From NCBI RefSeq assembly GCF_014839805.1, contig NC_051132.1:4030001-4094000 (forward strand): a DNA stretch of 64,000 nt. The letters are read 5' to 3'. Within the stretch, counting starts at the first letter, position 1, and each line of letters opens with the position of its first letter. The notes below the pieces were generated by a model, which did not search any database, was not told the DNA's origin, and saw only the letters and a list, made by a program, of their open reading frames with translations. The translations under genes were made by a program, and so were the position numbers. This document shows positions 3,111-23,361 of the stretch, piece by piece. Source of the stretch: Manduca sexta. Lineage: Eukaryota > Arthropoda > Insecta > Lepidoptera > Sphingidae.

Positions 3111-3133
3111 CCGATGACCTTGTCACGTCCCTC

Positions 3134-3139
3134 TTTATT
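3134..3139 (-). terminator. AATAAA polyadenylation signal, cluster B
   Basis: AATAAA on the minus strand lies 32 nt after the stop of the last cluster B ORF. Cleavage 10-30 nt further would give an unspliced RNA of roughly 430-450 nt. More distal sites may also be used. Confidence 0.45.
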
Positions 3140-3170
3140 CATTCTATGTACAGGCGCGTGTTGTTATTGA

Positions 3171-3269
3171 TCAGTCAAAACGGTAATCGGTCCAAAACCT
3201 TCTTTTTCTACAGGACGATGTTTCCCCCGGACTGGAGCCTGTGAAAATTCTGCGTCGTCCGCAACACAT
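3171..3269 (-). CDS. Cluster B downstream ORF: 32-aa basic Cys-Cys peptide, hypothetical
   Basis: This ORF starts 8 nt after B4 with A at -3 and has 32 residues. It begins MCCGRRRIF, has SSCRKRR at residues 18-24, and ends in YRFD. It carries eight Arg/Lys and no LDPT motif, signal peptide or membrane segment. Its counterpart at 22540-22644 occupies the same last position in cluster A and shares Cys-Cys, Glu, SSxRK[K/R]R and a late Tyr. That parallel between diverged clusters is the main evidence for coding. Other insect mlpt/tal transcripts are reported to carry one extra, unrelated longer ORF; equivalence to those is possible but untested. The basic block could bind RNA or serve as a nuclear signal; function is unknown. 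Confidence 0.68.
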   Translation of the reverse strand: MCCGRRRIFTGSSPGETSSCRKRRFWTDYRFD

Positions 3270-3277
3270 GTTGATCG

Positions 3278-3310
3278 CTAGTAGATCTCTGTCGGGTCTA
3301 AGCCGATCAT
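3278..3310 (-). CDS. mlpt: Pri/Tal-type peptide B4, variant MIGLDPTEIY (10 aa)
   Basis: The fourth ORF reads MIGLDPTEIY and ends in TAG. It follows B3 by 8 nt and has A at -3. It keeps LDPT and the terminal Tyr, but Glu replaces the usual Gly. Placement and spacing say it belongs to the cluster. Whether the G-to-E peptide is active, weakened or an antagonist cannot be told from sequence. A stretch at 5' also differs from its neighbours: there is a single Ile-Gly before LDPT. Confidence 0.88.
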   Translation of the reverse strand: MIGLDPTEIY

Positions 3311-3318
3311 TGTTGTTT

Positions 3319-3354
3319 TTAATATTGCCCAGTAGGATCCAAAACTTTATCCAT
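3319..3354 (-). CDS. mlpt: Pri/Tal-type peptide B3, MDKVLDPTGQY (11 aa)
   Basis: The third ORF of cluster B reads MDKVLDPTGQY and ends in TAA, with G at -3. The spacer to B2 is 32 nt and has no ATG. The frame stays open upstream to about 3609, which would give a 96-residue protein. That longer frame would start upstream of the predicted start site and run through both TATA-like sequences, so the short ATG nearest the motif is preferred. Confidence 0.93.
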   Translation of the reverse strand: MDKVLDPTGQY

Positions 3355-3386
3355 TTCTAATAGGATTCTTATACAGACCGTATGAA

Positions 3387-3422
3387 TCAATACTGGCCGG
3401 TCGGGTCGAGGGTGAACTCCAT
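3387..3422 (-). CDS. mlpt: Pri/Tal-type peptide B2, MEFTLDPTGQY (11 aa)
   Basis: The second ORF of cluster B reads MEFTLDPTGQY and ends in TGA. It begins only 6 nt after the stop of B1, and A is at -3. The GQY ending is a form well known among insect members of the family. The tight spacing fits reinitiation or leaky scanning on one RNA. Nothing about it is degenerate. Confidence 0.94.
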   Translation of the reverse strand: MEFTLDPTGQY

Positions 3423-3428
3423 TGTAAT

Positions 3429-3467
3429 TTAGTAAAGTCCAGTAGGGTCCAGGGTGACAATATCCAT
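3429..3467 (-). CDS. mlpt: Pri/Tal-type peptide B1, MDIVTLDPTGLY (12 aa)
   Basis: This is the first ORF of cluster B. It reads MDIVTLDPTGLY and stops at TAA. Residues 6-12 are the LDPTGxY signature. The ATG has G at -3 and G at +4. It is the first ATG after the predicted start site. It shares the MDI opening and 12-residue length with the first ORF of cluster A (MDIKVLDPTGIY), which supports positional homology of the two leaders. In Drosophila such peptides work with Ubr3 to convert Shavenbaby into an activator. That role is inferred here from the family. Confidence 0.93.
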   Translation of the reverse strand: MDIVTLDPTGLY

Positions 3468-3505
3468 GACAGCACAGAACACAAAAGTTCGTAACACCGC
3501 GCGGG

Positions 3506-3513
3506 TTTTTATA
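3506..3513 (-). promoter_or_regulatory. Second TATA-like box, cluster B
   Basis: The minus strand reads TATAAAAA here. A start 30 nt downstream would fall near 3482 and give a leader of only about 15 nt. It could be an alternative promoter, or simply AT-rich leader sequence if the upstream TATA/initiator pair is used. Confidence 0.35.
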
Positions 3514-3551
3514 AAGCACAGTCGTGTAAACACGCGTACGTCTTCTCGGGC

Positions 3552-3583
3552 AATGAGTTGAGCGGCGCGGGCGCAGGTTTATA
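3552..3583 (-). promoter_or_regulatory. Core promoter of cluster B: TATA box plus initiator
   Basis: The minus strand has TATAAA (3583-3578) and, 29 nt downstream, TCATTG with its A at 3554. That is close to the arthropod initiator TCA[G/T]T[C/T]. Between them lies a CpG-rich stretch. The spacing is that of a classical focused RNA polymerase II promoter. The start gives an 87-nt leader without any ATG before ORF B1. Confidence 0.6.
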
Positions 3584-3673
3584 TGAGAAGCGGCATCCGC
3601 TACCGCCATCTGACGGCGAGTAGACGGAACCTCGGAATGTTTTCCTGACCAGTGATAGGGTTAACGCCGCGCC

Positions 3674-3702
3674 GGACAAAGTGAGTTCAACTGAGCTTGT
3701 CC
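3674..3702 (-). promoter_or_regulatory. Imperfect 29-bp palindrome with nuclear-receptor half-site
   Basis: Eleven of fourteen base pairs are symmetric around position 3688. It contains AGTTCA (3684-3689) followed after 2 nt by TGAGCT. The first matches the ecdysone-receptor half-site exactly. The second has one mismatch and a 2-nt rather than 1-nt spacer. It lies about 120-150 bp upstream of the predicted start. Pri is an ecdysone target in Drosophila, so an ecdysone response site is plausible but unproven. Confidence 0.3.
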
Positions 3703-6359
3703 GTTTCTTTATAAATCAATATTGCTTCAGATGACTCGCTTGGTGTTAAAGAGGTTCACATGTATTTTGTCGTTTTTATCTACAAATGATTTTTAAAACC
3801 AATGGAGTGCTTCAATGAATATACAAGAATCTGGTTTAACTAATTATTTAATTATACACATAGAATTAGCTCTAGTTCTACTGTTTGAACTTGAAAAAGT
3901 ATAAAATTTATAAAACATTTACTTCACCTTTTAATAGACCTGCTTTTTGTAATTTTTACTGAAGCACCCCATACAAGATCGTCATTTGAACAAAGAGCCA
4001 AGTTAATGAAATAAACATTAAAGATCGATAGCCTCGCAACATTTTCATCACAATAAGGGCAGGAACACACGTGATATTTAAGGCAAGGCTCGTCCATAAC
4101 GTCTACATTGTTGCGTGTATACACAGCTTAATATAGGACATTACCATAGAAATAGGGTAGAATACCTTCTGATCTCGGCTCTTTACTTCCTAGTGATATT
4201 TTATATCGAAGAATGTCGGTCGAATAATAGCGTGCGTTTAGAATAAGGCCTTGTTTAGCGTAAAAGGTGACTAAGATTCGGCGTCGTGGCGAAGTTCCTG
4301 TAAGTTTAATTTATTTGCAAGTTGCTGGATTTTTGCTGGAATGCGTGTGTTCCTGCAATCAATTACCCGAGTAACCATTCTTGAAAAAGTGCTTTGAGTC
4401 TAGTTCTGGGTATGGTATCCTAGATTAGGTTTTCGTTTTAAAAAATGTCCTGTCTAACTTTGAAATCTGAGTCCTTACTCAGATTTCAAAGTTAGACAGT
4501 GTTCTGAGTCTTAACTATATAGTTGGTAGGTCGCTAACATCATGCGACGAAAATAAACTTGGCAAAACGTCGGTGCACTACTTGCAACTGCTTTCTCTTT
4601 CGGGCTACATACAAGAGCCGGACTATATTATATGTTATGTTTATAAAAGTAAGCGAGAAGGCTAATTGGTTATCTGATGGTAAGTAAATCAGTAACGCCG
4701 AACAATAACAGATGTATTGAGAGTGCATCACCAAACTCGTGGAAAGAGTAATTAGATGAAAAGGCGATTATATAATTTATTTTATCATAATATAAAGTTT
4801 AGTCTTGTCTATTTACTAAATAGTGCTACAGATAAATAGAAAATTCTTTATTGTACACTACAAACAGCAAAAGAAAGTACTTAAAATACGTATAATGATA
4901 ATGGTATATTTTCGGTTCATCCATGACTTTATAATATAGATAAAATTACTTAAGTCTTGCTCTACCATATGTATCGAACTTAAGCCCTTAGTAACTGGCT
5001 TCCTAAGAAAGAACTTTATAAAACATTTTCCTTAAAATTGTGTTTTGTCTTCATAGTGCGTGAGTGCATGGGTTCAAACTCCTGTCCAAGCAGTTGGTGG
5101 GCAGAGGTCCAATTAATGCACCCACGGATTACTGAGGTTATTTACTTACCATGATGTAATGGAAGAGGCTATAGCTAAAAAAGTCTATTTGTGGGAAAAA
5201 CACGTATTTTTTTATTAAAACCATCATACAAATTTCCCTGAACAGGAGATGTAACTTAGCTCTCATCGCGCGCTGCGCAGTACAAGCTAAGTTTGAAGTA
5301 GTTAGAAGATAAAATAACATACACTAAGGTGCAAATTGAACTCTGACATCTAAGCAAAACATTTAAAGAAAGTGTTAAACTAATAAAGATAAATGAAAGA
5401 AAACAGACATTTAATTACTTAAGAAAGATACAAGCTCATAGAAAATGTCGTTAAAAGCAAGATTAACCCGTAAGATCAAATGAAAGTCATCAGCATTGAT
5501 TAAAATTTGCCTCGCACCCATCTGTGTAAAACTTTCTCTATCTTTGTAGTAATAGACGCGGCGGAATGCTGTTTTCCCTCCACTGTATCCACTGAGGGTC
5601 TAAAATATTTCCATACGCCATTAGCTGGTACAAAGTGAGAAATAACTCAAGGTCTGTTTTCAATAAATCTAGAATATGTGACCAAGACATAAAGGCCGGG
5701 AAATGTCGGAGAAATTACGAGATCGTAGTGTCGCCATGATTTAATATATCATTCAATTTGGATAGTCCGTTGCCTTGAGCAGTATTTTAATGGATTTTTA
5801 TTTTAATCTTGATGTTTATAAATGTGTTTTCATAGTGGATTAAATTTTAGATGTATTTATATGTAAATACATTATAAATATAGAAATAAATGTGAAACAT
5901 ATAATTCTATACACCGCTTGTGCGTAAAAGTAGATTTACATTACTATATTGATAATGGATGGATGTTGCTTAGATATGAGGGATGTCTCATTTTCCTTTA
6001 AAGATTATTTTACTCGGTTTTAAAAGATGTCAAGACGCGAATTGTTCCAAATAAATTATTATATAAAAATGTATACTGATTTGGTAACGAGCTATTTTCG
6101 CGTCTATATCCTGTTAATTTTAGTTGGATTAAACTAAATATTATTCTACGTATTAAATATCATTCTCTTCTTAACGTATAATTCCTCTTATTTCGATATT
6201 TTTTTTACTTGAAGTTATTTTATCGGATTATATAATAAATAATAATATGTAATTATTATAATAAATCTTTGTTTTACCAAAAATATTAATTGAACAAACA
6301 TCAAATACAGTACAGATTACAGATACTGAAAATGCAAAATAGTTAAATTGGGTATTAAA
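3703..6359. other. Non-coding region upstream of cluster B
   Basis: No coding signal is seen apart from the hairpin at 4450-4499. It lies directly 5' of cluster B and is a reasonable place for its enhancers, but no specific site is claimed. Confidence 0.4.
4450..4499. repeat. Perfect 23-bp inverted repeat with 4-nt loop
   Basis: The arms at 4450-4472 and 4477-4499 are exact reverse complements, separated by CCTT. The hairpin is unique in the window and not part of a repeat family seen here. It is shorter than a usual insect pre-miRNA. Confidence 0.85.
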
Positions 6360-6600
6360 ATTAAATTATTTTTTACGGATTTTATTGCGGTTTTAATATT
6401 TTAGTTTTCATCCCTCTCAGTAGTAGAGGAGGCCCGTGCTCAGCAGTGGGCGAGTATATAATACAGGGCTGATATTATTATTTCCCCCGACGTTTCGAAG
6501 ACTTTGCAGCCTTCATGGTCACGGGGGGGGGGGGACTGAGGTGTTGTTCAACCGCAAAGTCAAAGTTACAATATCTATCTACATTTTACAATTATACAAC
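6360..6600 (+). mobile_element. Small inverted-repeat element interrupted by a truncated SINE
   Basis: The left part (6360-6408) has TTTTACGGATTTTATTGCGG. The right part (6481 on) has CCCGACGTTTCGAAGACTTT followed by TTGCAGCCTTCATGG and a run of twelve G at 6523-6534. Between them sits a 72-bp SINE 3' end ending in CTGATATTATTA. The same GACGTTTCGAAGACTTTGCAG element recurs at 7.7, 17.6, 24.9, 26.0, 44.7 and 63.0 kb. Confidence 0.7.
6409..6480 (+). mobile_element. tRNA-derived SINE (family 1), 3' fragment
   Basis: Only the last 72 bp of the family is present, from ATCCCTCTCAGTAGTAGAGG to CTGATATTATTA. This is the usual 5'-truncated outcome of target-primed insertion. It sits inside the element at 6360-6600. 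Confidence 0.8.
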
Positions 6601-7659
6601 TTTTAAAATTTTAGCTGTTGGTGGTCCGATCTACGCAGAATGAGCTCACAGTGTCTTGAAGTCAAATTTCAAGTAAAATTGGGTGTTAATATTTTGATGA
6701 ACAAGTTTCCCTCGTGGCCACCCTACATGCCGGCAGCGATCAGCCTCTGGTTAGGAGCCAGTTGGCGTTTCCTTTTCCCTGTCCGAGTGAAAACTGCTTT
6801 CTTATCATGATATCCAATATGCGCAGATGTAATGCATATACCCTAGTATTTACGTGTGGGTATGGTCGCTAACAATCTATGTTGTTATTTATGTCTGTTT
6901 ATTAGATGTTTAATTATCTCTTGATATTGTTCGTGTCGTGAGTTAATTCTTAGCTTTTTGAGTTTCACTAACAGAGAGGTGACTTATTCTGGATAGTATT
7001 TGAAATACAGATACAAGATATAAAATATGTATTTTCATGTTATATCTAAAATATTTTTGAGTTTTTATTTATATCTTGAATTTAGATACAATGTTTTGAT
7101 ATTTTCGTATTTTATATATAAAATATTTACTAAAATACTTTTACTAATTTACGTATGCATTTGCAAATTTGAATGCAGCCGTAAAATTTTAATTTATTAA
7201 AGTCTATGATCAAGTAGATAGGTTTCCATTTAGGAGGGGGACACAATATCCAATTTTAACCTGGGAGGTGCAAAGCGTTTATTTACGTAGCAGGTAGTAA
7301 TAGTAAAAGTAGTAGGTAATCCCAATAATTTAACTTAAGTAAAGTTAAAGTTGAACTTAAGTAATTGGTAATAAGTCGCTGTGTTATTTGAAATCTCCGC
7401 ATGACAAGATGTCACAGCGTCCTTAGATGGTACAAAAATAATATATTTACTAAAAATACGCCCTTATTCGAATTAGAAATGTGCAAATCACGACATGGAT
7501 AAAAATGAGATATTTTACATTGATGTTTTTCTATTTCACGGTACATTGAGATTGAATAAACATTATAAAAGCGAAAAAAAATTGTATTACAATTCTCCAT
7601 GTCCGCTCTATATAATTTTACAACTCTTTGGTGAATATTATTAAATTTAAACAAAATAA

Positions 7660-7735
7660 CATTAAACTTAAACTATTTTTAGGATTTTATATTTTAATTT
7701 TCTCCCGACGTTTCGAAGAGTTTGCAGCCTTTGCA
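7660..7735 (+). mobile_element. Fragment of the GACGTTTCGAAGACTTTGCAG element
   Basis: It contains CCCGACGTTTCGAAGAGTTT and TTGCAGCC, matching the left half of the 6.4-kb copy. The 3' terminal part is missing. Confidence 0.65.
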
Positions 7736-10700
7736 CAAATTAAGATATAAAAACTTTGAAATATAGATTAATTTGAATGTCTTACATTTATGTTAACATA
7801 AGAATGATGTAAACAAAATAAATTTCCACATAACTGTACTCGATTGTATGTATTAGAAAACAAGTCTATACTTTAGATTTCTAGTTCCGCGATTTCTAAT
7901 CTGCGGACCGTTCCCTTTAACGCTACACAACGCTTGTTTGTAAGACCTTTGTCACATAACGTGTTTCCTTTAATTAGTAATTGTTATTATTGATTTTATG
8001 TCTTGGGATTACAGCTTAATTTTCTTTAGCAAATTGTTCATGTTAAAGAGAAGTGTGGAACATTTGTAATATTTTTTTTGGGTAATTGATCACAATTTAT
8101 AGATCATTATTTTTGATTAAGAAATGGAAAGATTACATGTAATTTTAAAGATTTATAAAGAATTATAAAAAATCTAATCTTTGTAACATTTTAATGTAAT
8201 TTTATTTCTTTTAAATTTCATGAATTGCAAATGCCCTGGACTACCGAAAATCTGAAGATAATGGAGAGTTCTTCGTTGACGAACAGTGGCTTGACTGCGT
8301 CCAAAGGGCACCGTGACCATCTACCAAGAACTGCTTTCATAGGCTACCATCGGCTCGACTTGACAATATCTATAGGCCACCGTGACCATCATGAATTACC
8401 TTGATAGACTACAACAAAACATTAATATGTGTTGTAATTATGTAACATTTAAATATTTTTACATAATTTGATAATCTATTAACAATAGAATTGCACCTGG
8501 TCAACGAACTGCACTTGTTCGAAGTAAAAAACAAATTTATGGGTATATCAAAATTTAGTTAAATTAGATAAGGTCGTAGAACCACGCCAAAATCTTAACC
8601 CACGTTATATACATATAGAGATAATACCACCAATCAAGATATTAATGGCTTTATAGCAAATTAAAGTTTTCTTAATAATCCGTTTACGCATTTGGTCAAG
8701 TATAGATAGATAAAAGTAACCTTTACGTCTTCACAACAACTTGGAATCCCTTCTACATTGTAATAGTCTGATCTATAACCAATGTAGTTTCAAAATCTGG
8801 TTGGTGCATAGAACTCTTGCTATATTTTGAAAGTCTTGTCATCTAACCATTGGCATTTGATTAAGTGGTTAGTTTCTCCTATGCAAGAGTCCATCTGCGA
8901 TCATATCGTCTGAGGTGTACAGGGCTCGTGTTGTAGCCTTTTAGCTAATAAATACATAAATTACTTAGTCATGTTCTGTACAAAACATTATAGATTGATA
9001 TTTGGACTATAATCAACTTGTCACTTCATCCAGCATAAATAGCACCTCTGTGTAAACACTTTCACATAATTTCATATAATACAAATAAAATATCAAGTTA
9101 GCCAAGAAACGTCGAGGTGCGGTCAAACTTTCTGATGAAGCCGATCTCATATGGCGTTCAGTTTCACCGCTCGCTGCGCACGCGCATCGTATAGTAATGG
9201 ACGGCTGTTAATTCCCAACGCGTCGCCTCTTGCGCAATATTCTGATATCCTCAGTTTAACACTAGACACGGGCGTTTTTTTACATTTGTCAGCGGAATTA
9301 CAAATGAGTTTTTTGGTAAAAGTTGATTGCTCCGTCTGTCATGAGTTCTTTGACATTGATTTGTTATATTGAATATGAATTTTGATATGCAAAACAATAA
9401 TCTATTGTCAGATTGTACTGAAGTAAATATTTATTTAATATTCCTGTATATTTCACGCACTTGTAGCAGTTACGTCTATATAAGAAGTTATGTCTTCAAA
9501 TTGGTCACTTAACCGTCAGTCGTCAAACGTGGTATATTCAAAATGGTTGTACGACCTGTCAAAGGAACGGATTACTTCCTTATTTTAAATTCTCCAAATT
9601 ATTTTAGAACATGGTCTGACTAGGAATTAGTTTTCAGAATCTAAGCCATTCCTTTTCAGAGCCTTGTTCTAAGTTCTTAAGTCTTCCGAAACTGTCGAAA
9701 TCCTTTACACGTGTCGTCATTCCCTTCACCTTAATAACGTAGTATGTAAAGTGCGACCGTTTCGAAAAATCCATTAGTAGGCACAAGGGCTTGGACTCGC
9801 GAGGACTCACGAGTAGCGCCAGTGTGGGTCACAGAATTCAAAATAAAAACTGTTGCTAGCGGCGAAAGGTTCATATTATAATGCTATGCAAACCTATCAC
9901 ATAGTTACCTAATATAAATAAATTATATTGCATAGTGTATAAACTGTATTCCTTTTTTAAAATTGTTTTGCTGTGTCTTGTTCCTTTAAGATTTCGTTAT
10001 AGGTTTCAGATGAACTGATGAAAAAATTATATTTATATATTCTTTCATATTCTAAGCTAGTTCCTTTTTCAAATATAATACTCATCAAGTTGGTTAAAAT
10101 GTATTAATTAAGATAACTGATTTTTTCTTATAGACAAAGGAAAACGTTATAATTAAATTTATAGAATAACTTTATAAAACATTTTGTTTGCAGCACACAA
10201 CTATTGAATCCGTCTATGCTTAAGTATATGTATATGGTATATATATGTATGTAGTGATAGCGTGCATGTTGCAGTGTCAATTTCTAACAAACGTGACGTC
10301 AGCATTGTAATTGAGAAGCGCACCAAGTAGTAAATATATATAATGGCGATTGGAGAGAGCGAGCTTACTTACGATGCGACACCTAGCTTTGTTTAGATGC
10401 ATTTTTAAACAGAGAAATGATTGGAGTCGACACAAATTAAAACAATGTTGACCAGATTTACTGAGATTGAATTTGTGAAATATGTGTTTTCGTATATGAT
10501 TTTAGATATTTTTTATTTGATTATTACCAAATAGTATCATTAGTGGATATTTTGTTCAAACTGTAACGAACAAATGTTGTGAGTTCCAGTTAATAAAAAA
10601 AAAACAAGTCTCGAGTATAAAACGAATTAAGATCTCTTCACGATGGAATGGATTCCTTGACGAATATAAATATAGACTATCCCAGTCATTAAGGTACGTA

Positions 10701-12535
10701 TTATATGTCTATCATAGTTGAAGAATGTTTTGTATTTTTATCATATATCAATGAAAATAAAAAGAGAAAATGTTGAAGTACTTTTACAATAAACAAAGTT
10801 TACGAGTAGGTAAGACGGCGTATTTTGTGCTTATAAATGTTATTTAATTTTTTATTTGGCCATTACTTCTATATAATTATCGTTCGAAGTATACAGCTTT
10901 GGCGTTCAATAAATTTGAACTTCATGATGTAAGAAGTTTTAATTTAAGTTTAAAGAAAAATAGTCCACCCTTAGATGAAAGATAACAAGAATAACAAACA
11001 CAATAACCAACAAATAATTATACTTCTTAATTATTCTCAAAGCTTGACACACTAAGGCAACTCCATAGCACCATGAAACGCAAAAGTAGGTTAGCACAAG
11101 AAAGCGTCGCGCCGCCGGCCGCGAACCGCGCATGACCGCAGACACCTGCGGCTCTCGCATGCGCCTGCGCATTCTACTCACTCCTATAATACAGATGCTC
11201 TTAATTTGAATTCATGGTAATTACGGTATAAGTATTGTCGTTAAATTTTTATACGGATATTATTGGAGGGGATAAAGTAGTAAGGGGGACATTGTCCCGT
11301 TTCCGTGGCCAGATAAAAGGACGTGTATTGTATACATTTTAATATTATTGGATGGTAATGTAGGTTTAAATAGTATTGGTAGATGCAATGCTCAGTTACT
11401 ATGAAATTGTACTGCATGTTTTTGCTGCAGCTTTTTTATTAAAGTGTTCAAATAAAAAGCATATTTTGCATTCATTTTGTCGTATACTTAAACGAAAATA
11501 TTTTACTAAATTTGTTAATTCTTGGCACGGCAGTGTGAGTAAGAATCGGACGTAATATTTGAAACTTTTGAAATCTTAGAGTGAATGAACTTTTGTTTGC
11601 GTATTTTGATTCGTTACTGTATTGGTAAACTGAAAATGGCGGTAAATGGTAATATCAAATTTGTTATTCAAAATATTTTCGGAAGATGTTAATACGATCT
11701 ACATTGGATCAGAAACTCAAATCCCAAATATTTATAAACAATTCCATTTGGAGCGGTCTTATAACTTCGCATATCCTATAACAACTGAACTGCCTTGCTC
11801 ATCACATTCTTAATTCATCACGAAATACTGTCAAAATAGCATCTTATGACCGCTGAAAAGCGACTAAATTGCAATGCAGTTCGGTTGCCTGGAAATGAGT
11901 TTGTTAGAAAGCAGGCCCCCGTGGTTTTATTGTGTCTACACTGGGCGAATGTGGGTTGCAAGACTTATACATTTTGTCAATCTAGATAGTCCTAGAGTTT
12001 ATGGTTAGCCCAAGTCTGAGATTTCTCATATGTTCAGATGCTCCTTGGAGGTTAAAGATGGCGGAAGACAGCTTATCTTCCTTTCTGCAACACGTAGTAG
12101 GAATTTCCTTGTATGAGAGTAGGAGATATATTTAATATTAACTGGATAGTAAACACCATACACATGATGAAGGATCCGCCATGCTGGCATGTCCTAAAGT
12201 CTTTACCGTTCAGCTGGCTTATATCCAATGAGACGTACCCCAGGCCGGCATAATTCTCGCGAGCGTCAATGCAACGTCTCTCGGCATTACATTTGCAATA
12301 TAACCTAACATCTAGTAGTATTGTTTAGCATTAAAATATTCTTTTTATTTTTTTTTTGTTTATTTACCAACGCTTTCACAAAAAACAAGCCAATTACAAG
12401 TCATCATAATGTAACAAAGCAATTATAGGTAAATACAGCATGGGTCAAATAATATTTTACTAGCTAATAAATTCACTAAAACTACCCCGAGCCTTATCAA
12501 ATATTATATGCACATAACACACACGTGCGTCGATT
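7736..12535. other. Non-coding spacer between the two mlpt clusters
   Basis: AT-rich, with no convincing coding frame. Around 8290-8400 a short phrase (CCGTGACCATC) recurs, suggesting decayed local duplication. A compact GC-rich island is at 11095-11185 and is listed separately. Confidence 0.4.
11095..11185. promoter_or_regulatory. Short CpG island with GCGCATGCG-like motifs
   Basis: About 90 bp of dense CpG contains CGCGCATGACCGCAG and CGCATGCGCCTGCGCATTC. The latter resembles the palindromic NRF1/Erect-wing site (TGCGCATGCGCA). It may be a promoter or insulator between the clusters. This is composition and motif evidence only. Confidence 0.25.
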
Positions 12536-12608
12536 TACGAAGGGGTAAGGGCGCAATTAGAGTAACCCAATTTTGGTTTATTCCGTCCCATAATGTAATA
12601 GGCGTTGA
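12536..12608 (-). mobile_element. Second SINE family (family 2), distal part of an interrupted copy
   Basis: It reads, in reverse, the family phrases for ACATTATGGGACGGAATA and the terminal GGGGT tail. The copy is split by the SINE at 12621-12948. Its other half continues at 12961. Confidence 0.6.
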
Positions 12609-12620
12609 TCTTATCGCAAT

Positions 12621-12948
12621 AAATAATAAATAATATCAGCCCTGTATTATATACTTGCCCACTGCTGAGTACGGGCCTCCTCTACTACTGAGAGGGATTA
12701 GGCCTTAGTCCACCACGCTAGCCTAGTGCGGATTGGTAGACTTCACACACCTTCGAAATTCCTATAGAGAACTTCTCAGTTGTGCAGCTTTCCTTAAGAT
12801 GTTTTCCTTCACCGTTAAAGCGAACGATAAATTCACAAAGAATACATACATGATTTTTTAGAAAAGTCAGAGGTGTGTGCCCTTGGGATTTGAACCGGCG
12901 GACATTCGTCTTGGCAGTCCGTTCCACACCCAACTAGGCTATCGCCGC
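12621..12948 (-). mobile_element. Full-length tRNA-derived SINE (family 1) nested in another SINE
   Basis: The minus strand begins with a tRNA-like head: GCGGCGATAGCCTAGTTGGG (A box TAGCCTAGTTGG) and a B box close to GGTTCAAATCC. It ends in CTGATATTATT and a short A/T tail. A 12-bp target-site duplication flanks it, TCTTATCGCAAT (12609-12620) and TCTTATCGTAAT (12949-12960), with one mismatch. The host sequence is a family 2 SINE, so this insertion is the younger. Confidence 0.9.
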
Positions 12949-12960
12949 TCTTATCGTAAT

Positions 12961-13326: not shown

Positions 13327-13665
13327 TGTATGTATGTATGTGTTAAGCAGGCGATAGCCTAGTCGGGTGTGGAACGGACTGCCAAGACGAATGTCCGCAG
13401 GTTCAAATCCCAAGGGCACACACTTCTGACTTTTCTAAAAATCATGTGTGTATTCTTTGTGAATTTATCGTTCGCTTTAACGGTGAAGGAAAACATCGTG
13501 AGGAAACCTGCACATTTGATTAGTTCTCTATAGGAATTTCGAAGGTGTGTGGAGTCTAGCAATCCGCACTAGGCCGGTGTGCTGGACTAAGGCCTAATCC
13601 CTCTCAGTAGTAGAGGAAGCCCGTGCTCAGCAGTGTGCAAGTATATAATACAGGGCTGATATTAT
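13327..13665 (+). mobile_element. Full-length tRNA-derived SINE (family 1)
   Basis: The head GCGATAGCCTAGTCGGG starts near 13350, the B box is GGTTCAAATCC, and the tail ends in CTGATATTATTA. Flanking copies of TATATGTTTCCA at 13315-13326 and 13666-13677 look like the target-site duplication. A short (TGTA)n lies between the left copy and the head. Confidence 0.88.
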
Positions 13666-13677
13666 TATATGTTTCCA

Positions 13678-14975: not shown

Positions 14976-17566
14976 TTTTTTTAGTTTATTTGATAATTCT
15001 TTATATTTATATTAATCATCATTATTCAATAAATTGTCTACGCTAGTTTCATAAACCATGTATTTAATCCAAAAAGCTTTTAAAAATTAAAACGTACGTA
15101 AGGTAAACATTTAGTTGCTCTTCCATTGTATAGGGATTAATAAAACAGTGATCCAAAAATAGCTGCTACCAGGAATTCCTTTCTCCATAATAAAAATGTT
15201 TCATATTTTATTTCATTCTACGTAACCCGAAATGTAAATTGTTTGCCTACGATACAGGCAATGTATAGTGTAAGGAGCTAATGGTTTCGTCATATAATAT
15301 CAATTAAATATTATTATTATGTAATAACTTACTCATATATTAATTAGGTCATCAGGAATATTATTTTTTTGGTAATAAATAAATAATTTATTGCACTGAA
15401 GTCTATATGGCAGCACACCAACATTTCCTTCGACACTGTGGTGTTTATGAATAGTGCTTCGATTAGGTAATCTACTAATGCGTTGGTTTATCTTCGATTT
15501 AAAAAGAATTAATAAAGTAATATTTATTACAATAAATTGCATTATTATACCATCCATATACAAATATGTATTTTCTTTTTGGTCTTTTGACCTACCTTAC
15601 TTTTATTAGAATTTATACCTATTAGAGAAATCCACAAGCTAGGAGACATGACTAACTATTTCAATGAGTCTTATATAATTGCATATTCTGCATCTGTCAA
15701 GAAAGAAAAATTGCAGGTTTTTCATACAATGTCTACCAGTCCAAACCAATTGCATTTAATATCATATAACTTAGTAAATGTTGAATGAATACATTATTTC
15801 TGAGAAGTACACACCCACAGTCTCGATGCGAACCCGGTATTTGTTCCCGGATATCGACTTATGACATCCAAGGCCCTTTTAAACTATTTCGTTCTATTTA
15901 TAACTTAATTGTAGCGAGATTAAGACTATTTTACTTTATACGCGATAATTATGTGTAATTTTTACTCCTGATTTAACAAAGAGACGAATAAACATTTGAC
16001 TTGAACTCAAATTAAAATAAAATACGTAATTAAGCAAAACCGGAGGATATTCTAGTCATGCTTCCGTTTCGTGTTAAATCCATTCATCGATTGCACATTA
16101 CATAAGTAATTAATGTCGGGTTGTTCCAACGATTGTGTGATATAATTCATAGTAGTACCTATTAACAATTACTTCCGACAGTAGGACAAAATTAGATTTC
16201 AACGATTGCGAAAAATCATTATTCTTAAATTGACAATATTTTTACTAGCTTTTGCTTGCGGCTTTGCCTGCGTTAAATAGTTTTTCGGGGATGAAAGTGT
16301 CTAAATAAAAAGTAGCTAATGTCCTTCCCAGGATCTCTAAATCTCCATAACAAATTTCATCGAAATATATTCGCTAGGTTTTGTTTTTAGGTTTATCGCG
16401 TTCAGACAGATAGCTGCGGCAGGGGACTTTGTTTTATTTATAATACAAAATTATTTGACACGATATCAACAGTTAACACAAAATATATGTTAAATTTAAT
16501 ATAACATTCTTTTGCTTGATATAATTTGGGCAGCACTAAAATTTCATGATCGATTGAAAAATAATGAATTATTATATTTGATAGACAGGCATACAAAAAC
16601 TGTCTCAGTTGCCTATTTCCTAAATAAATGATTTGCTAAAATGTACAAAACAAGACTATGTTACAAAATAAAACTACCAAATATAATTTATTGCCTTTAT
16701 ATTTAGATGCTGTTGAATTAAAAAATGATAGTGGGCTGCAGACGCATTTGTCTTCAGCGAGCCACTTTCAAATGTATAAGAATAACATATTTATTATTCC
16801 TGTATAAATCAATTATAATTGTAAGCATTAAATCAGAAATAGTAATAACAATAGTATATTATAGCGTCGGTGACAAGTAAAATCTTCGTAAATGTTTTAA
16901 GCATAGCTATAATTGACTCTACTTTAAGATATCGTCATACAAAATGTAGAGTGTTTGTCAGTTATCTCGCTCTTACTAATATTATATAAAAATTAAACTT
17001 TGTAAATATGTTACAACATTAGAAGTAAACGTAGAAATCATTGAAAGTCTATGGATGTTTGTCACAAAGACAAAACTTTGAAGATACTTTGATCAATTTA
17101 TGTGTACGCTATATTTTAATTTAGGAAGTTATATCTTGATGTATTAATCCAAAAAATATATTTCACACGCACGGTGCTGAGAGCAATGTCCAGTAATTTA
17201 CAAATATGTAATCTTAAATTTAGTTTCCAAGTTACCTATACAATATACATGTATTTATATGTACGTCGAGAGCCTTAAAGTTCATACCCTCTCGTGGCGG
17301 CCTTGAGCTACTGGCTTCCATTTTTATTAAGCGCCATTGCCTTCGCGCGTGCCCACCTGCTCCCGCTATAAAAACTCCACAGAACTATACTTAGTGCACA
17401 TTCAATAAAACGTTTCGTATGCCATGTTAGGAGTAATATTTTCCTACATTTCATGTTTTTTTTTTGTACTTAAATGAGTGCAAATCGACACAACTGGTGA
17501 CTGAGCTGTAGTTGTGCAGGTAGAGACAAAGTATAGACAAATTTAACATAACCATGGATGACTTGT
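14976..17566. other. Non-coding with one retroelement tail
   Basis: Apart from the tail at 16244-16445 the region is AT-rich without a coding signal. Confidence 0.4.
16244..16445 (+). mobile_element. Non-LTR retroelement 3' tail
   Basis: It has the GCTTGCGGCTTTGCCTGCG opening and a CAAATTTCATCGAAAT core seen in many arthropod LINE-derived tails, and ends near CTTTGTTTTATTTATAATA. No coding part is attached. Confidence 0.55.
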
Positions 17567-17669
17567 TAAATAAAACTATTTTTCGTATTTTATCGCGGTT
17601 TTAATGTTATAGTTTTCTCTCTGCGTTTCCCGGAAAATAGTTTAATTTTAATGCCTAACATTCACATAA
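17567..17669 (+). mobile_element. Degraded GACGTTTCGAAGACTTTGCAG-family element
   Basis: It begins AAATAAAACTATTTTTCG with ATTTTATCGCGG and ends with an inverted AAAATAGTTTAATTTTAATG. The central phrase is mutated (CTGCGTTTCCCGG). A family 1 SINE abuts its right end. Confidence 0.55.
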
Positions 17670-17995
17670 TAATAAAAATAATATCAGCCCTGTATTTTAT
17701 ACTGTCCCAATGTAGGGCACGGGCCTCCTCTACTATTGAGAGGGATTAGGCCTTAGTCCACCACGCTGGTCTAGTGCGGATTGGTAGACTTCACACACCC
17801 TCGAAAATTCCTATAGAGAATTTTTCAGTTATGCAGGTTTCCTCACGATGTTTTCCTTTACCGTTAAAGCAAACGATAATTCACAAAGAATACACACATA
17901 ATTTTAGAAACGTCAGAAGTGTGTGGCTCTGGGGATTTGAACCTGCGGACATTCGTCTCGGCAGTCAGTTCCGCAACCAACTAGGCTATCGCCGC
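17670..17995 (-). mobile_element. Full-length tRNA-derived SINE (family 1)
   Basis: Head in reverse at the right end (AGCGGCGATAGCCTAGTTGG), B box region near 17940, tail CTGATATTATT at the left. CACATAA flanks both sides (17663-17669 and 18000-18006), a likely short target-site duplication. More diverged than the 12.6-kb copy. Confidence 0.85.
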
Positions 17996-19057
17996 TTTCC
18001 ACATAAACATAAGAAATCATTATGGAGGAGGAATCAATGGAAGTAAGACTATTGTATAGAAAATTCAAAAATATAGTTTTGCTGTACCATTTCCTGCTGT
18101 AATAGATTCGTAGAGCATTACTGGGTGATATAAAATGCCTGCCACTGTCTGTCCTGGATTAAAAATTACTGTGGCAAGTGAAGACGGTATAGTCTCCAAA
18201 AGGCCATGTCCTTTCCCTTCTACTTATTTGAAGACACTTTAAAACTACGAATTTGTTTTTATATCCTATCAGCGACTTGTCCTAGAATGTTAGCAGATAT
18301 ACGCTTAGATTGTTTTTCTGTCGTATAAAACATTAATGAATTATACACATGGACTTTCCCCTTGGCTTTCTTCTATTAGAAAAACCGTATTAAAATTTTG
18401 TCGATAATTTTTAGTTTGTTGTATTCAGACAGACGGTTGGGAGAATTGTTTTATATTATAGAAAGATGTTATTTTATTTATTTATTTTAATATCAACACA
18501 CAGCCATTATAGGTAACACTCAATTCGCCTGGCGGAACTACTAACAACATATAAAAACTTGGTGTAACATAAAGGTAGATTAAAAAATAAGAATTGTAGA
18601 GTTGTGTATGTTATGTAGGATTTTGTGTTTTTAATTTTTTATCTTTGTTCCAACAATAAACTTATTTCTTTCTGTGATTCCAAAGTATTTATTGCGAATA
18701 TCTCAGCTCACACTTTAACTGCATAAATGCATTGAATCGCATTTCTATAGGCGACCTAGCTCAAGGAACTTGTGAGTCAAGAGAAAGCTTACATTCCAAG
18801 AAATATTTATCTAAATAGGTAGCCTAACTAGTTTGTGGTGATCATATCATTTCTCAAACTAAATTAATACTTTTACTTTAGAAACAATAGGAGGAAAACT
18901 CGCTACAATATTAAAACAATGTGAGTCTCTAACACCTGTCATACTTGTAGTAATTATATATGACTAGTTATTACTCGCGGCTTGGCCCGTGAAAGTATGC
19001 TATAAACTGAATATTATTGAAACCTAACCCTATATTAAGGGGTTATTTTATAGTGGC

Positions 19058-19194
19058 AAAAAGTCCATACAGGCGTCCCTTTTAGGTTTATTAATGTTTG
19101 TCTTAGATTTCTGTTAAATAGACCGCGATATGATAACTAGGGCAATGTATGTTGCATCGGGTTACCTTTTGTAAAATTTCACCCTGCGCCACTG
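19058..19194 (-). repeat. Interspersed repeat shared with 35.1 kb
   Basis: The reverse strand reads CAGTGGCGCAGGGTGAAATT and continues with AAAAGGTAACCCGATGC and CTAAACCTAAAAGGG. The copy at 35125-35278 is in the opposite orientation with the same word order. The family is not identified. Confidence 0.6.
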
Positions 19195-19301
19195 GTATTT
19201 TAATAATAAATGAAATTATTAAAACCCGTTTAATAATGCCTGTTTATTCCGTATAGACTAATATAAAAATTATAATTACTTATGTTTATGCGAATTGAAA
19301 T

Positions 19302-19362
19302 TGAAATAAAACTGTTTTTCGGATTTTTTTTCGCGATAAAACCAGCAAAATACAGTTTTATT
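19302..19362 (+). mobile_element. Short fold-back fragment of the inverted-repeat element
   Basis: AAATAAAACTGTTTTTCGGA at the left faces TACAGTTTTATT at the right, with TCGCGATAAAA between. It looks like an internally deleted copy consisting mostly of the terminal inverted repeats. Confidence 0.5.
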
Positions 19363-20190
19363 AATAATATTAAATTTTACCATATCTGTGAACTGCCATG
19401 CATACTTCAATGTTAGTGGAGCCCCTCTCTAATTTGCTGTTTAGTCCTCTAAAATACACTATTCATTTTACTCATGACAAGAAAACTAATATACGTGCAG
19501 CGCCTCTAGCGGACTACGGAGACATCGTCTTCAAACATTTGTATAAAATTAAAACATCCCCAAACACATAAACCTTTAAACAATGTTTCAATTCATCTAT
19601 GCTTTAGAGCTTAGTTCGTTATGTAAACGTTTTGAGATGTAGAGATAACGCATAGGTATTGTGATGTTGCGATCAGGTGTATACGTAATTTTGTTGAATA
19701 CAAAAAGAAATTGCTACGAACACGAAGAAGGCGCATCTAATAGTGTAGCTATTTGTCTATTTCATTATATTCATGTATTTTGATTCATAAATTAGAGACG
19801 AAGCATAAACTTTGAATAATTTTTTTATCATTGAATTAAGGAGTATGCTAGTTTATTCAGGTTAAACACTATTAATGGAATCAATAAAATTTACGAAAAT
19901 TTCTATTTTGCAATCATTGATTTTGAATTCTGATTTCTCACACTAAAATCGGTAAACTTAAATACCACAAACATCAGCTAATCAAACAATTATTATAATT
20001 AAATCACATCAGTGGGGTCATTGAACGTGTCAATTCCATAGACAGGTGTTAATTCAATTACTTAAGTAGAATCAAGTCATGACTATTTTTTAATAGTCAT
20101 GATTATAACCCTATGTCCTGATTGTAAAACTTTACATAATTACGGGGCAAAAAGTCCAGGTATCACCACAAAATTCACTCATAGTTCCTT

Positions 20191-20526
20191 AAATAAATAA
20201 TAATAATAATATCAGCCCTGTATTATATACTTGCCCACTGCTGAGCACGGGCCTTCTCTACTACTGAGAGGGATTAGGCCTTCGTCCACCACGCTGGCCC
20301 AGTGCGGATTGGTAGACTTCACACACCTTCGAAATTCCTATAGAGACCTTCTCAGATGTGCAGGTTTCCTCACGATGGTTTCCTTCACCGTTAAAGCGAA
20401 CGATAAATTCACAAAGAATACACACATGATTTTTTTAGAAAAGTCAGAGGTTTGTGCCCTTGGGATTTGAACCTGCGGACATTCGTCTTGGCAGTCCGTT
20501 CCACACCCAACTAGGCTATCACCGCT
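20191..20526 (-). mobile_element. Full-length tRNA-derived SINE (family 1)
   Basis: It runs from the reversed tail (AATATCAGCCCTG) to the reversed head (CTAGGCTATCACCGCT). A (TAA)n stretch marks its 3' end. Sequence is close to the 12.6- and 21.2-kb copies. Confidence 0.88.
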
Positions 20527-21130
20527 AACTTCATTTTAATAAAATACGAAGGCGAAACTAAAGGGTGTTAACCCTGGCTATTTTTAGCGACGACAGCTGT
20601 TAAATTATAATGGAATTCATTTGTGCTAGTGTTTAAGTTTACATGTGATAGAGTGTGTTTTTTACTCGACTTTACCTAAAGCGAGGTAGAGTTGGCATGT
20701 TAAGTTCATCGCAATTTACTTGCGGAGAAGGGCATAATTACAAAATACAATGTTTGTAATCACTTTATAAACTAATCAGGAATCAAATGTAATGAGGGGA
20801 TTAAGAATTATTTAATTGCGTCTTTTGAGACATTGATGTTCTAAAACTTACTTCAAAATAATACTTCACATATTTTTGATCTTTTTATGAATGACGAAGC
20901 GAAGTTGCTCTTCTGATGTTAGGCACGACTGCCCAGGTCGTATCGTAAGCTATAATACCAAGATATTGAGAAAAGTATTAAATTGTGTTCCTAATCCTGA
21001 GACTAGACGTTCAGCCAAATAACGCCCAATAATTATCCTGCTTATAATATCCATCAAATCGAACTATATATTGCTATTATGTGGCAGAAATAGGTCAAGT
21101 CATACTATTAAGACTACGTAGTCTACGTAT

Positions 21131-21166
21131 ACTAATTAGTAAGTAAGTATACGTATACTAATTAGT
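21131..21166. promoter_or_regulatory. Paired palindromic TAATTA homeodomain-type sites
   Basis: ACTAATTAGT occurs at 21131-21140 and again at 21157-21166 within a 16-bp direct repeat (ACGTATACTAATTAGT). TAATTA is the core site of many homeodomain proteins. It lies about 1.4 kb downstream of cluster A. Duplication of a short AT-rich phrase by chance is also possible. Confidence 0.25.
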
Positions 21167-21216
21167 CAAACCTTACTCAAACTTTCACGTACGATACCAT
21201 CTATTGAATGACTTAT

Positions 21217-21543
21217 TACAGCAGCGATAGCCTAGTTGGGTGTGGAACGGACTGCCAAGACGAATGTCCGCAGGTTCAAATCCCAAGGGCACACACCTCT
21301 AACTTTGCTAAAAAATCATGTGTGTATTCTTTGTGAATTTATCGTTCGCTTTAACGGTGAAGGAAAACATCGTGAGGAAACCTGCACATATAAGAAATTC
21401 TCTTTAGGAATATCGAAGGAGTGTGAATTCTACCAATCCGCACTAGGCCAGCGTGGTGGACTAAGGCCTAATCCCTCTCAGTAGTAGAGGAGGCTCGTGC
21501 TCAGCAGTGGGCAAGTATATAATACTGGGCTGATATTATTATA
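21217..21543 (+). mobile_element. Full-length tRNA-derived SINE (family 1), intact target duplication
   Basis: Head GCAGCGATAGCCTAGTTGGG, B box GGTTCAAATCC, tail CTGATATTATTA. TGAATGACTTAT flanks it exactly at 21205-21216 and 21544-21555. The perfect duplication indicates a comparatively recent insertion. Confidence 0.92.
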
Positions 21544-22162
21544 TGAATGACTTATACTACGTATATGTAGTTCATACACATATCAATGATAATATTGCAC
21601 GCGTTAAGGAATTCCATATGAGGAAACACCTTAATGTTATTATGACGCGTAGTTTCTGCTGCGGCATGTTTTTTACCTTTAATTCCCTTGACACGGTTAC
21701 ATTAGGTTCATTCAGGAGGTACGCTGACTGCCGAGCGTGTTACCAAACTGTAGTAATATCAGCCGATGCAATAGGCTGATGCAATATTGAAGAAATTGTC
21801 ATATATATTAAGTAATTGTTTTTCGATATTAAAGTATTTATTTCTCTATAGTTCGTCTATGTTGATATTTAATTAATCATTATGTTCAATTTGTCTGTTT
21901 AATTGTTTATATTTGTTTTAATATTTTTTAATACATTCTGATCGAATATATTTTTAAACGTATCAAAAGCGGAATTAATTGTATTTAAATATTAAGCTTC
22001 ATGTAAGTCAATATTTCGAAAATGACTCAATTTACCATTAAGATTTTTTAATGTCATTGTGTATACAATAATGTAATAATGTGTTCATTATAAAAATAAT
22101 GTGGTATTCATATAGAGGGTAAGAAATTAAAAAAATAAAAGTAAAGTATTAAATTTATAAAG

Positions 22163-22168
22163 TTTAAT
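22163..22168 (-). terminator. Possible ATTAAA polyadenylation signal, cluster A
   Basis: This variant signal lies about 370 nt past the last ORF. No AATAAA occurs between the last ORF and 21842, where one does occur (21837-21842). The cluster A RNA may therefore have a 0.4-0.7 kb 3' UTR, longer than in cluster B. Confidence 0.25.
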
Positions 22169-22539
22169 TTACATTTTCATGTGTTTAGCAACATTTAGCT
22201 AGAGTATTTATCTAACAGTCTTATTATTTTACAGGAGTATAAAATTCGCTGCCAAAGTCAAAAGAAATGCAATCGGGTACAGTGAAATGCAACATAACAT
22301 TTGTTTTAACAGACAATAATAAAAATAACGTCGGAAACGTGAACATAACAAAACGTACGATTTCCGACGATTTTCAACTAAATTAAACTACTTACCTAGT
22401 GTTAGTCAATAAATAATCACTTAATCTAAGGTAACTTCAATAAATTAAGATGAACGCTGTTTCCAGTTCAATGCGGAGACATGCATTATGTTCGGAAAGG
22501 TATTTGCAGTCTTTGGTTCCCTATATACATAATTACAAA

Positions 22540-22644
22540 TCATTTAGAATATTTTATAACAATTTTCCTCTTTTTTCTATTAGACGACACTTCAGTTCTG
22601 CTTGTTGACAATAAGTTGTGGCGGATTGACGAGCAACAAGACAT
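22540..22644 (-). CDS. Cluster A downstream ORF: 34-aa basic Cys-Cys peptide, hypothetical
   Basis: This ORF has 34 codons, A at -3, starts MSCCSSIRH, has SSNRKKR at residues 20-26 and ends IKYSK. It carries nine Arg/Lys. It has no LDPT motif, signal peptide or hydrophobic segment. It aligns with the 32-codon ORF at 3171-3269: Met, Cys-Cys, an Arg at 7/8, Glu at 16/18, the SSxRK[K/R]R block and a late Tyr agree with small gaps. Both are the final ORF of their cluster. The pairwise similarity is short, so homology rests on the combination of motif and position. Function is unknown. Confidence 0.66.
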   Translation of the reverse strand: MSCCSSIRHNLLSTSRTEVSSNRKKRKIVIKYSK

Positions 22645-22704
22645 AATTTTGTTAATAATAAATGCGTTTTGTCTCTTAAAAATTAAACATTACCTTAAAT
22701 AATG

Positions 22705-22740
22705 TTAGTACACACCTGTGGGGTCTAAGCCGAAAGCCAT
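22705..22740 (-). CDS. mlpt: Pri/Tal-type peptide A7, MAFGLDPTGVY (11 aa)
   Basis: The last LDPT ORF of cluster A reads MAFGLDPTGVY and ends in TAA, with A at -3 and G at +4. It has an extra Ala after Met compared with the MF units. The 60-nt spacer to the next ORF holds the only stray ATG of the cluster, opening the four-codon ORF MFNF. Confidence 0.93.
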   Translation of the reverse strand: MAFGLDPTGVY

Positions 22741-22767
22741 TTTGACAATGGAAATTATAAATTTAAC

Positions 22768-22800
22768 CTAATACACGTTAGTAGGATCGAGAATAAACAT
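22768..22800 (-). CDS. mlpt: Pri/Tal-type peptide A6, variant MFILDPTNVY (10 aa)
   Basis: This ORF reads MFILDPTNVY and ends in TAG, with A at -3. Asn stands where Gly is normal. Cluster B has a parallel change at the same motif position in B4 (Glu). The ORF is otherwise intact in start context, length and spacing, so it may be a divergent functional form or an early stage of decay. Confidence 0.88.
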   Translation of the reverse strand: MFILDPTNVY

Positions 22801-22846
22801 TATGATTTTTTGAAAAAAATCTATAACACTTAACACTAAAATAGTC

Positions 22847-22879
22847 TCAGTACACTCCAGTGGGGTCTAGGCCGAACAT
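22847..22879 (-). CDS. mlpt: Pri/Tal-type peptide A5, MFGLDPTGVY (10 aa)
   Basis: This ORF reads MFGLDPTGVY and ends in TGA, with A at -3. It is identical in protein to A2. The spacer from A4 is 35 nt without an ATG. Confidence 0.93.
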   Translation of the reverse strand: MFGLDPTGVY

Positions 22880-22914
22880 CTTGATGCACTTCACTTTGTC
22901 TTCGCACTAATATT

Positions 22915-22947
22915 TCAGTACACACCGGTAGGGTCGAGGACGAACAT
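22915..22947 (-). CDS. mlpt: Pri/Tal-type peptide A4, MFVLDPTGVY (10 aa)
   Basis: This ORF reads MFVLDPTGVY and ends in TGA, with A at -3. It lies 33 nt after A3 and has the same peptide. The codons for the shared residues have drifted, so the copy is not recent. Confidence 0.93.
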   Translation of the reverse strand: MFVLDPTGVY

Positions 22948-22980
22948 TTTTGCTGAATTTCAGGAAATATTATAATTCTT

Positions 22981-23013
22981 CTAGTAGACTCCAGTTGGGT
23001 CTAGCACGAACAT
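22981..23013 (-). CDS. mlpt: Pri/Tal-type peptide A3, MFVLDPTGVY (10 aa)
   Basis: This ORF reads MFVLDPTGVY and ends in TAG, with A at -3 (AAG before ATG). The peptide equals A4, with different codons at Val, Leu, Pro, Thr, Gly and the second Val. It is one of five consecutive MF-type units that probably arose by local duplication. Confidence 0.93.
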   Translation of the reverse strand: MFVLDPTGVY

Positions 23014-23074
23014 CTTGGCTCCAAAAATCAACGAATCTTTAAAATAGATCTCGCCTTCGAAATCTCCAACTTTT

Positions 23075-23107
23075 TCAGTAGACACCAGTAGGATCCAGCC
23101 CGAACAT
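23075..23107 (-). CDS. mlpt: Pri/Tal-type peptide A2, MFGLDPTGVY (10 aa)
   Basis: This ORF reads MFGLDPTGVY and ends in TGA, with A at -3. The spacer from A1 is 76 nt, the longest in the cluster. The peptide is identical to A5 although codons differ (GGG CTG GAT CCT here against GGC CTA GAC CCC in A5). Synonymous divergence with an unchanged peptide suggests purifying selection. Confidence 0.93.
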   Translation of the reverse strand: MFGLDPTGVY

Positions 23108-23183
23108 TTTGGCAAAATATTATTTTAAAACTTTTTCAGAAAAATGTATATTGTATTTAATATAATACGATGATTTTCAATTT

Positions 23184-23222
23184 TTAGTAGATGCCAGTGG
23201 GATCCAGAACTTTGATATCCAT
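23184..23222 (-). CDS. mlpt: Pri/Tal-type peptide A1, MDIKVLDPTGIY (12 aa)
   Basis: The first ORF of cluster A reads MDIKVLDPTGIY and ends in TAA. The ATG is the first after the predicted start site and has G at -3 and +4. It pairs with B1 of the other cluster by position, length and MDI opening. Inferred role: a peptide co-factor for Ubr3-dependent Shavenbaby/Ovo processing, as in Drosophila. Confidence 0.93.
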   Translation of the reverse strand: MDIKVLDPTGIY

Positions 23223-23324
23223 AACTGAATGCGAGTTGAACTTGAAATATCGATCTTATTTACGATAGTAAGGGCGCGCGCGGAGCGGTTATTATACGTG
23301 CTCACGCTACAATGCTTGTCAGGC

Positions 23325-23361
23325 GACTGCTGGCTCCGCGCCCACGTGCCTTCCTTTTATA
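23325..23361 (-). promoter_or_regulatory. Core promoter of cluster A: TATA box, E-box and initiator-like site
   Basis: The minus strand has TATAAAAG (23361-23354), then the palindromic E-box CACGTG (23343-23348), then GCAGTC with its A at 23328, 33 nt from the first base of the TATA box. The surrounding 200 bp is CpG-rich, in contrast with AT-rich flanks. The predicted leader of 106 nt has no ATG before A1. Confidence 0.58.

Follow-up and report, generated by a model that had tools for sequence, protein, structure and literature searches.

The tarsal-less/mille-pattes gene (tal; also polished rice, pri) is a founding example of a gene encoding only micropeptides, and the literature, as far as the available excerpts of the papers cited here go, speaks of one gene per insect. 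In Drosophila, tal consists of a single exon with four small open reading frames (smORFs), the last of them carrying two motifs (PMC3136413), and pri was described as an intron-less transcript of 1.5 kb with enhancers spread across more than 50 kb (PMC8435736). The tal gene of Clogmia and those of Drosophila, Aedes, Bombyx and Tribolium, with which it was compared, display a variable number of LDPTGXY open reading frames (ORFs), followed by one C-terminal peptide with the consensus GREETSSCRRRR (PMC6124123). The tal-like gene of Bombyx mori (NM_001099847 in PMC5469737, printed as NM_0010998471 in PMC6503385) gives a transcript with five short ORFs (sORFs), named 1A-4A and B, of 12, 11, 11, 10 and 32 residues (PMC6503385). 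Here, we report on a window of 64,000 nucleotides (nt) of Manduca sexta (assembly GCF_014839805.1, contig NC_051132.1, positions 4,030,001 to 4,094,000 of the forward strand), which carries two units of this type, termed A and B in the following; all positions are counted from the first letter of the window.

A six-frame search of the window for the pattern M(0-6)LDPTxxY-stop revealed exactly 11 ORFs, all 11 on the minus strand, and a search with a relaxed motif added no ORF in the whole window, hence no third unit or remnant copies elsewhere in it. The ORFs fall into two clusters, unit B with four members at 3278-3467 and unit A with seven at 22705-23222, and the first ATGs of the two units lie 19,755 nt apart. 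Chance clustering of the 11 micro-ORFs is ruled out, since none of 100 simulated windows of equal length (order-1 Markov, with the dinucleotide frequencies of the window) contained such ORFs. In both units, a 12-residue peptide beginning with MDI comes first, and the last ORF is basic and carries a pair of adjacent cysteines close to its N-terminus, opening with MCC in B and with MSCC in A. Read along the minus strand, the first five ATGs of B and the first seven of A each open an ORF of the family. A first-pass annotation of this DNA had placed two minus-strand LDPT clusters about 19.7 kb apart, each between an MDI-type opening peptide and a basic Cys-Cys ORF, and both its coordinates and this layout proved right.

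Unit B is made up of smORF 1 (MDIVTLDPTGLY, 12 residues, 3429-3467, whose ATG is the first one downstream of the preferred start site prediction), of the smORFs MEFTLDPTGQY (smORF 2, 11 residues, 3387-3422), MDKVLDPTGQY (smORF 3, 11 residues, 3319-3354) and MIGLDPTEIY (smORF 4, 10 residues, 3278-3310), and of a C-terminal ORF (MCCGRRRIFTGSSPGETSSCRKRRFWTDYRFD, 32 residues, 3171-3269), all on the minus strand. Its ORF lengths, 12/11/11/10/32, equal those given for the Bombyx tal-like transcript in number, order and length. The distance from the first to the last ORF amounts to 198 nt and the coding stretch to 297 nt, compared with about 187 and about 289 nt implied by the Bombyx constructs (PMC6503385). 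The Bombyx tal primers for quantitative PCR (PMC5469737) translate into GLY-stop..ME and VY-stop..MC, and junctions of the same kind were found in unit B by translation and gapped alignment, GLY-stop..ME between B1 and B2 and EIY-stop..MC between B4 and the C-terminal ORF, with short indels; the primers have no ungapped match in the window, where their best sites, with 7 and 6 mismatches, all lie outside unit B, so the DNA does not come from Bombyx mori. Since its ORFs correspond one to one to those of the Bombyx transcript in layout, unit B is very likely the canonical gene and most likely the orthologue of Bombyx tal-like.

Unit A, also on the minus strand, opens with smORF 1 (MDIKVLDPTGIY, 12 residues, 23184-23222) at the first ATG after its predicted start site. 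It continues with MFGLDPTGVY (smORF 2, 23075-23107), MFVLDPTGVY twice (smORF 3, 22981-23013, and smORF 4, 22915-22947), MFGLDPTGVY again (smORF 5, 22847-22879), MFILDPTNVY (smORF 6, 22768-22800) and MAFGLDPTGVY (smORF 7, 22705-22740), and it closes with a diverged C-terminal ORF of 34 residues (MSCCSSIRHNLLSTSRTEVSSNRKKRKIVIKYSK, 22540-22644). With lengths of 12, 10, 10, 10, 10, 10, 11 and 34 residues, it does not show the Bombyx tal-like layout and hence was not filed as that gene; the available excerpts on Bombyx tal-like (PMC5469737, PMC6503385) describe one gene and nothing resembling unit A. The layout of the Clogmia gene is recognizable in unit B and, more loosely, in unit A, which differs from the one transcript described there (PMC6124123) in having seven instead of four N-terminal peptides and a degenerate C-terminal one. 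Both units resemble Drosophila tarsal-less/polished rice in their clustered smORFs sharing LDPTGQ(T)Y; in contrast to the fly gene, the window contains a pair of units, each followed by a candidate splice donor, and no ORF in which the motif occurs twice.

The exact motif LDPTGXY is present in three of the four smORFs of B, the other reading LDPTEIY, and in six of the seven of A, the other reading LDPTNVY. All seven LDPT peptides of A end with valine or isoleucine before the final tyrosine. The contrast between GQY/GLY endings in B and GVY/GIY endings in A, to which the first-pass annotation had drawn attention, thus holds as a trend and not as a rule, since the fourth peptide of B ends with EIY and the last LDPT-type ORF of Bombyx with VY.

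The closing ORFs provide further insight into the identity of the units. Among 507 ATG-started ORFs of 20-199 residues on both strands, those of B and A rank first and second against the tal C-terminal consensus, with scores of 44 and 28 and the next ORF reaching 25; for B, whose match is ETSSCRKRR, none of 20000 shuffles was as good. The closing ORF of A stands in the expected place and has a similar length, and the closing ORFs of A and B are alike (28 of 20000 shuffles as good). Given these two top ranks, the Cys-Cys ORF of the first-pass annotation is, by its sequence, the known tal C-terminal peptide, which B has kept intact and which has degenerated in A. Together with the motif, the ranks uphold the assignment to the mille-pattes/tarsal-less family, and on sequence grounds both clusters are confirmed as two units of this type. 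The wording "two complete units" is fair for B, but says too much for A, where the C-terminal peptide is only weakly conserved.

The pattern of substitutions points to the age of the smORF copies. Within the seven-codon cores of the seven smORFs of A, variation affects all seven third positions, compared with four of the 14 positions that come first or second in their codon (Fisher P = 0.003), and the four cores of B give the same counts (7/7 and 4/14, Fisher P = 0.003); for all 11 cores together, the figures are 7/7 and 5/14 (Fisher P = 0.007). The proportions of synonymous (pS) and nonsynonymous (pN) differences, calculated over pairs that are not independent, are 0.75 and 0.07 within A, 1.04 and 0.16 within B, and 0.86 and 0.16 between A and B. 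As synonymous differences are near saturation while pN is low, the copies are probably old and constrained at the peptide level. A recent tandem amplification within A is unlikely, given the near-saturated synonymous sites, and no tandem array was found.

Stray start codons are scarce in front of the smORFs. The spacers of A from the predicted start site to A7 (384 nt) contain no ATG where 7.1 would be expected (Poisson P ~8e-4); as a control, 0.3 percent of 1273 same-strand stretches of 387 nt are free of ATG, somewhat above the Poisson value. Extended to the C-terminal ORF, the spacers of A contain one ATG compared with 8.3 expected (P = 0.002), and those of A and B combined (384 + 141 nt) contain none compared with 9.7 (P = 6e-5). 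A purine occupies position -3 in all 13 ORFs (background 0.52, P = 2e-4), and the first ORF of both units has a G at -3 and a pyrimidine at -1. Such a start context is less favourable than most of the later ones. ATG depletion and start contexts would be what scanning with leaky or repeated initiation needs. With synonymous sites near saturation, residues kept and no stray ATG before A7, unit A is likely an undescribed, old and maintained second unit that has diverged.

The first-pass annotation had also given each unit its own TATA box and initiator-like site. A scan for TATA boxes with an initiator-like site at 27-34 nt yielded, for unit A, a predicted core promoter at 23328-23361 (minus strand) with TATAAAAG at 23361 and GCAGTC at 23328, at a spacing of 33 and with a predicted leader of 106 nt that is free of ATG. 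In unit B, the TATA at 3513 originally proposed lacks an initiator-like site within the spacing of 27-34 nt, and its leader would be as short as about 15 nt. The pair at 3554-3583 (minus strand; TATAAA at 3583, TCATTG at 3554, spacing 29) fits better and is preferred, because its leader of 87 nt, free of ATG, is close in length to the one deduced from the Bombyx constructs (roughly 79 nt; PMC6503385). Since equally good pairs have a background rate of about 0.09 per 150 nt, all promoter calls in both units, including the pair in A, are weak predictions. Upstream of B, a frame of 96 codons runs from ATG 3609 (3319-3609, minus strand), overlaps B1 and B2 and continues in frame into B3, ending with MDKVLDPTGQY; it is probably due to chance in a GC-rich stretch and would be translated only with a start upstream of 3609.

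As to the origin of the units, the shared strand, order, MDI 12-mer in first place and C-terminal-type ORF in last place favour duplication of a whole unit. A blastn comparison of 21000-30000 with 1-10000 gave seven pieces (38-72 nt), of which none coincides with a smORF or a predicted promoter and the longest belongs to a dispersed repeat; it offers no sign that the units share flanking or enhancer sequence through duplication. We regard it as probable that the window holds two neighbouring tarsal-less/mille-pattes genes derived from an old tandem duplication, B being the orthologue of Bombyx tal-like and A an extra, diverged copy, each giving one predicted polycistronic mRNA. A second tal unit in an insect is not named in the open-access literature searched, which covers key tal papers only in part and therefore is weak evidence of absence.

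Several observations count against this reading of two genes. The C-terminal ORF of A (RTEVSSNRKKR) is a weak match to the consensus, with 227 of 20000 shuffles as good (P ~0.011), and has lost the cysteine of SSC; a four-codon ORF, MFNF (22690), sits between A7 and this ORF. The Pfam models of tal (PF22856 and PF21899, curated cut-off 27 bits) remained below their cut-off in the nine sequences scored, A2, A4, A5 and B2 being excluded for their short frames: the best scores were 15.7 bits for B3 (PF22856 E 0.016, PF21899 E 0.19) and 13.3 bits for A7 (PF22856 E 0.11), and seven of the nine had no match, so that family membership rests on motif and layout and not on the Pfam score. The spacers of B up to the C-terminal ORF (141 nt) lack ATG where 2.6 would be expected, but are too short to show depletion alone, and the preferred promoter pair of B has a rival of the same score, a TATA box at 3713 paired with TCACTT at 3682, whose longer leader contains ATG 3609. 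Finally, the DNA of A1 aligns slightly better with B3 (23.9) than with B1 (21.3), which means that the shared MDI opening is no proof by itself that the first ORFs correspond; taken together with the near-absence of matches between the flanks, this suggests that the duplication is old or that the order was partly rebuilt.

The units could instead belong to one gene with two promoters, if splicing of the A transcript joined the donor at 22395 to an acceptor about 19 kb away, such as that at 3610, making A an alternative 5' exon of the B gene. Both units lie on the same strand with A upstream of B, and among 3485 GT sites and 3089 acceptors of the minus strand, ranked with a splice-site matrix, the candidate 5' splice site TAG/GTAAGT (22390-22398), 144 nt past the last ORF of A, ranks third, and upstream of B the acceptor at 3610 shares rank 9; this also counts against two separate genes as it would allow a joined transcript. 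However, donor rank alone proves little, because a GT site inside smORF A7 ranks seventh, and the donor after A need not reach B, as the acceptor at 22249, equal in rank to 3610 and one of five listed in 20000-22540, lies only 146 nt past it. Unit A moreover is closed by a C-terminal-type ORF of its own, in keeping with a terminal unit, and 11 poly(A)-signal hexamers (AATAAA/ATTAAA), common in AT-rich DNA, are present in 20000-22540. The Bombyx tal-like cDNA, as described in the excerpts of PMC6503385, holds the B set only, and an exon following 3610 would begin with ATG 3609, whose 96-residue frame over B1 and B2 breaks the clean order. We therefore consider a single gene unlikely. A further candidate 5' splice site, AAC/GTGAGT (2986-2994, minus strand), lies 179 nt past the last ORF of B, ranking 25th of 3485 and third best in the 3' region of B; a 3' intron would set the units apart from the Drosophila gene with its one exon.

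That A might be a decaying duplicate of little or no use, with B alone doing the work, would agree with its strongly diverged C-terminal peptide and with the one smORF reading LDPTNVY instead of LDPTGVY. A copy without function should before long lose its ORFs, ATG depletion and start contexts; yet all seven smORFs of A are open, LDPT and the final tyrosine are kept while third positions are near saturation, about seven ATGs are missing from the spacers up to A7, and the start contexts are good, so that decay is improbable. Hardly credible is an assembly artefact in which the second unit would stem from a mis-join or from a haplotype copy put in the wrong place: the two units have different numbers of ORFs as well as different peptides, spacers and C-terminal ORFs, their synonymous sites are near saturation, and the few short blastn pieces, none of them at the smORFs, are not allelic DNA.

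Returning to two neighbouring genes, their function can be approached by analogy. In Drosophila, the peptides bind Ubr3, upon which Shavenbaby (Svb) is recognized and its N-terminal repression domain degraded (PMC11475943, PMC6428570). In Bombyx cells, constructs with A1-4 and B, names that refer to the Bombyx sORFs and not to our units, abolished the signal of OVO-N28::DsRed, a reporter with residues 1-28 of BmOVO-1, an effect not seen with B alone (PMC6503385). Following these systems, ribosomes would scan from the cap and meet the family ORFs in turn, the first of them in a weaker start context; by passing or reinitiating from ORF to ORF, they would release several peptides of 10-12 residues. 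In the manner of Pri in Drosophila and Tal-like in Bombyx, these peptides would bind Ubr3, an E3 ligase, leading to trimming of the N-terminus of Svb/OVO and its conversion from repressor to activator. By this analogy, unit B would work via the Ubr3-Svb/OVO route, and the peptides of A, having kept LDPT and the tyrosine, most likely share the mechanism. One result speaks against so simple a scheme: the full-length Bombyx tal construct left the OVO-DsRed signal, while shorter ones ending at nt 368 abolished it (PMC6503385). The same difference may hint at repression by the long 3' untranslated region.

With promoters about 19.8 kb from each other, different enhancers would be able to fire the same switch. 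It is reasonable to picture both within one regulatory landscape, as no clear other gene was seen among the frames examined and the enhancers of Drosophila pri extend so far. It is possible that the V/I peptides of A choose a different target. A more far-reaching proposal, which we put forward only tentatively, is that Lepidoptera carry two tarsal-less genes, with A as a retained paralogue under its own switch, in which the seven V/I-Tyr peptides serve as a second set of micropeptide ligands and steer Ubr3 to a target, tissue or moult different from that of the canonical B peptides. This would amount to duplication and subfunctionalisation of a polycistronic micropeptide gene.

If two such genes exist, the animal would draw a key developmental switch from two sources under separate control, and a second old, constrained unit would show that polycistronic smORF genes duplicate and diverge like ordinary genes. 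Unit A would then be a natural experiment on the residue before the final tyrosine, on the role of the C-terminal peptide and on the reason for many copies. For species with both units, RNA interference, knock-out and quantitative PCR studies of tal must allow for a second source of similar peptides.

The window contains 26 stop-to-stop frames with a length of 90 codons or more, of which the Pfam scan covered 10, giving no match in these besides the tal model and a weak hit to Thioredoxin_14. The latter (E 0.0015, 19 bits at a cut-off of 30) concerns a lysine-rich frame of 131 codons at 54850-55242 (minus strand), which has no relative among solved structures at E 0.1 and may be spurious, an exon or a relic. 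Known RNAs and tRNAs are absent from the window, as are palindromic ecdysone-receptor elements under a strict pattern, though half-sites may still occur. Searches for relatives by DNA pattern gave no match in two scans of bacterial and archaeal genomes and in two of three scans of virus contigs; the single virus match, at the end of a 172-residue frame on a 14.2 kb locus with no second motif, was dismissed as chance. These scans say little, since such collections are not insect genomes. One short interspersed element (SINE), which we take to be a lepidopteran SINE, has eight matches in the window, five near full length (92-100 percent identity, 100 percent being the source of the query) and three partial; together with the kinship of unit B to the Bombyx gene, this element marks the DNA as lepidopteran on sequence grounds. 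The matches are located at 21429-21512, 20233-20316, 17706-17788, 13555-13638, 12657-12740, 40348-40418, 6410-6451 and 57336-57367, six of the eight lying between the two units.

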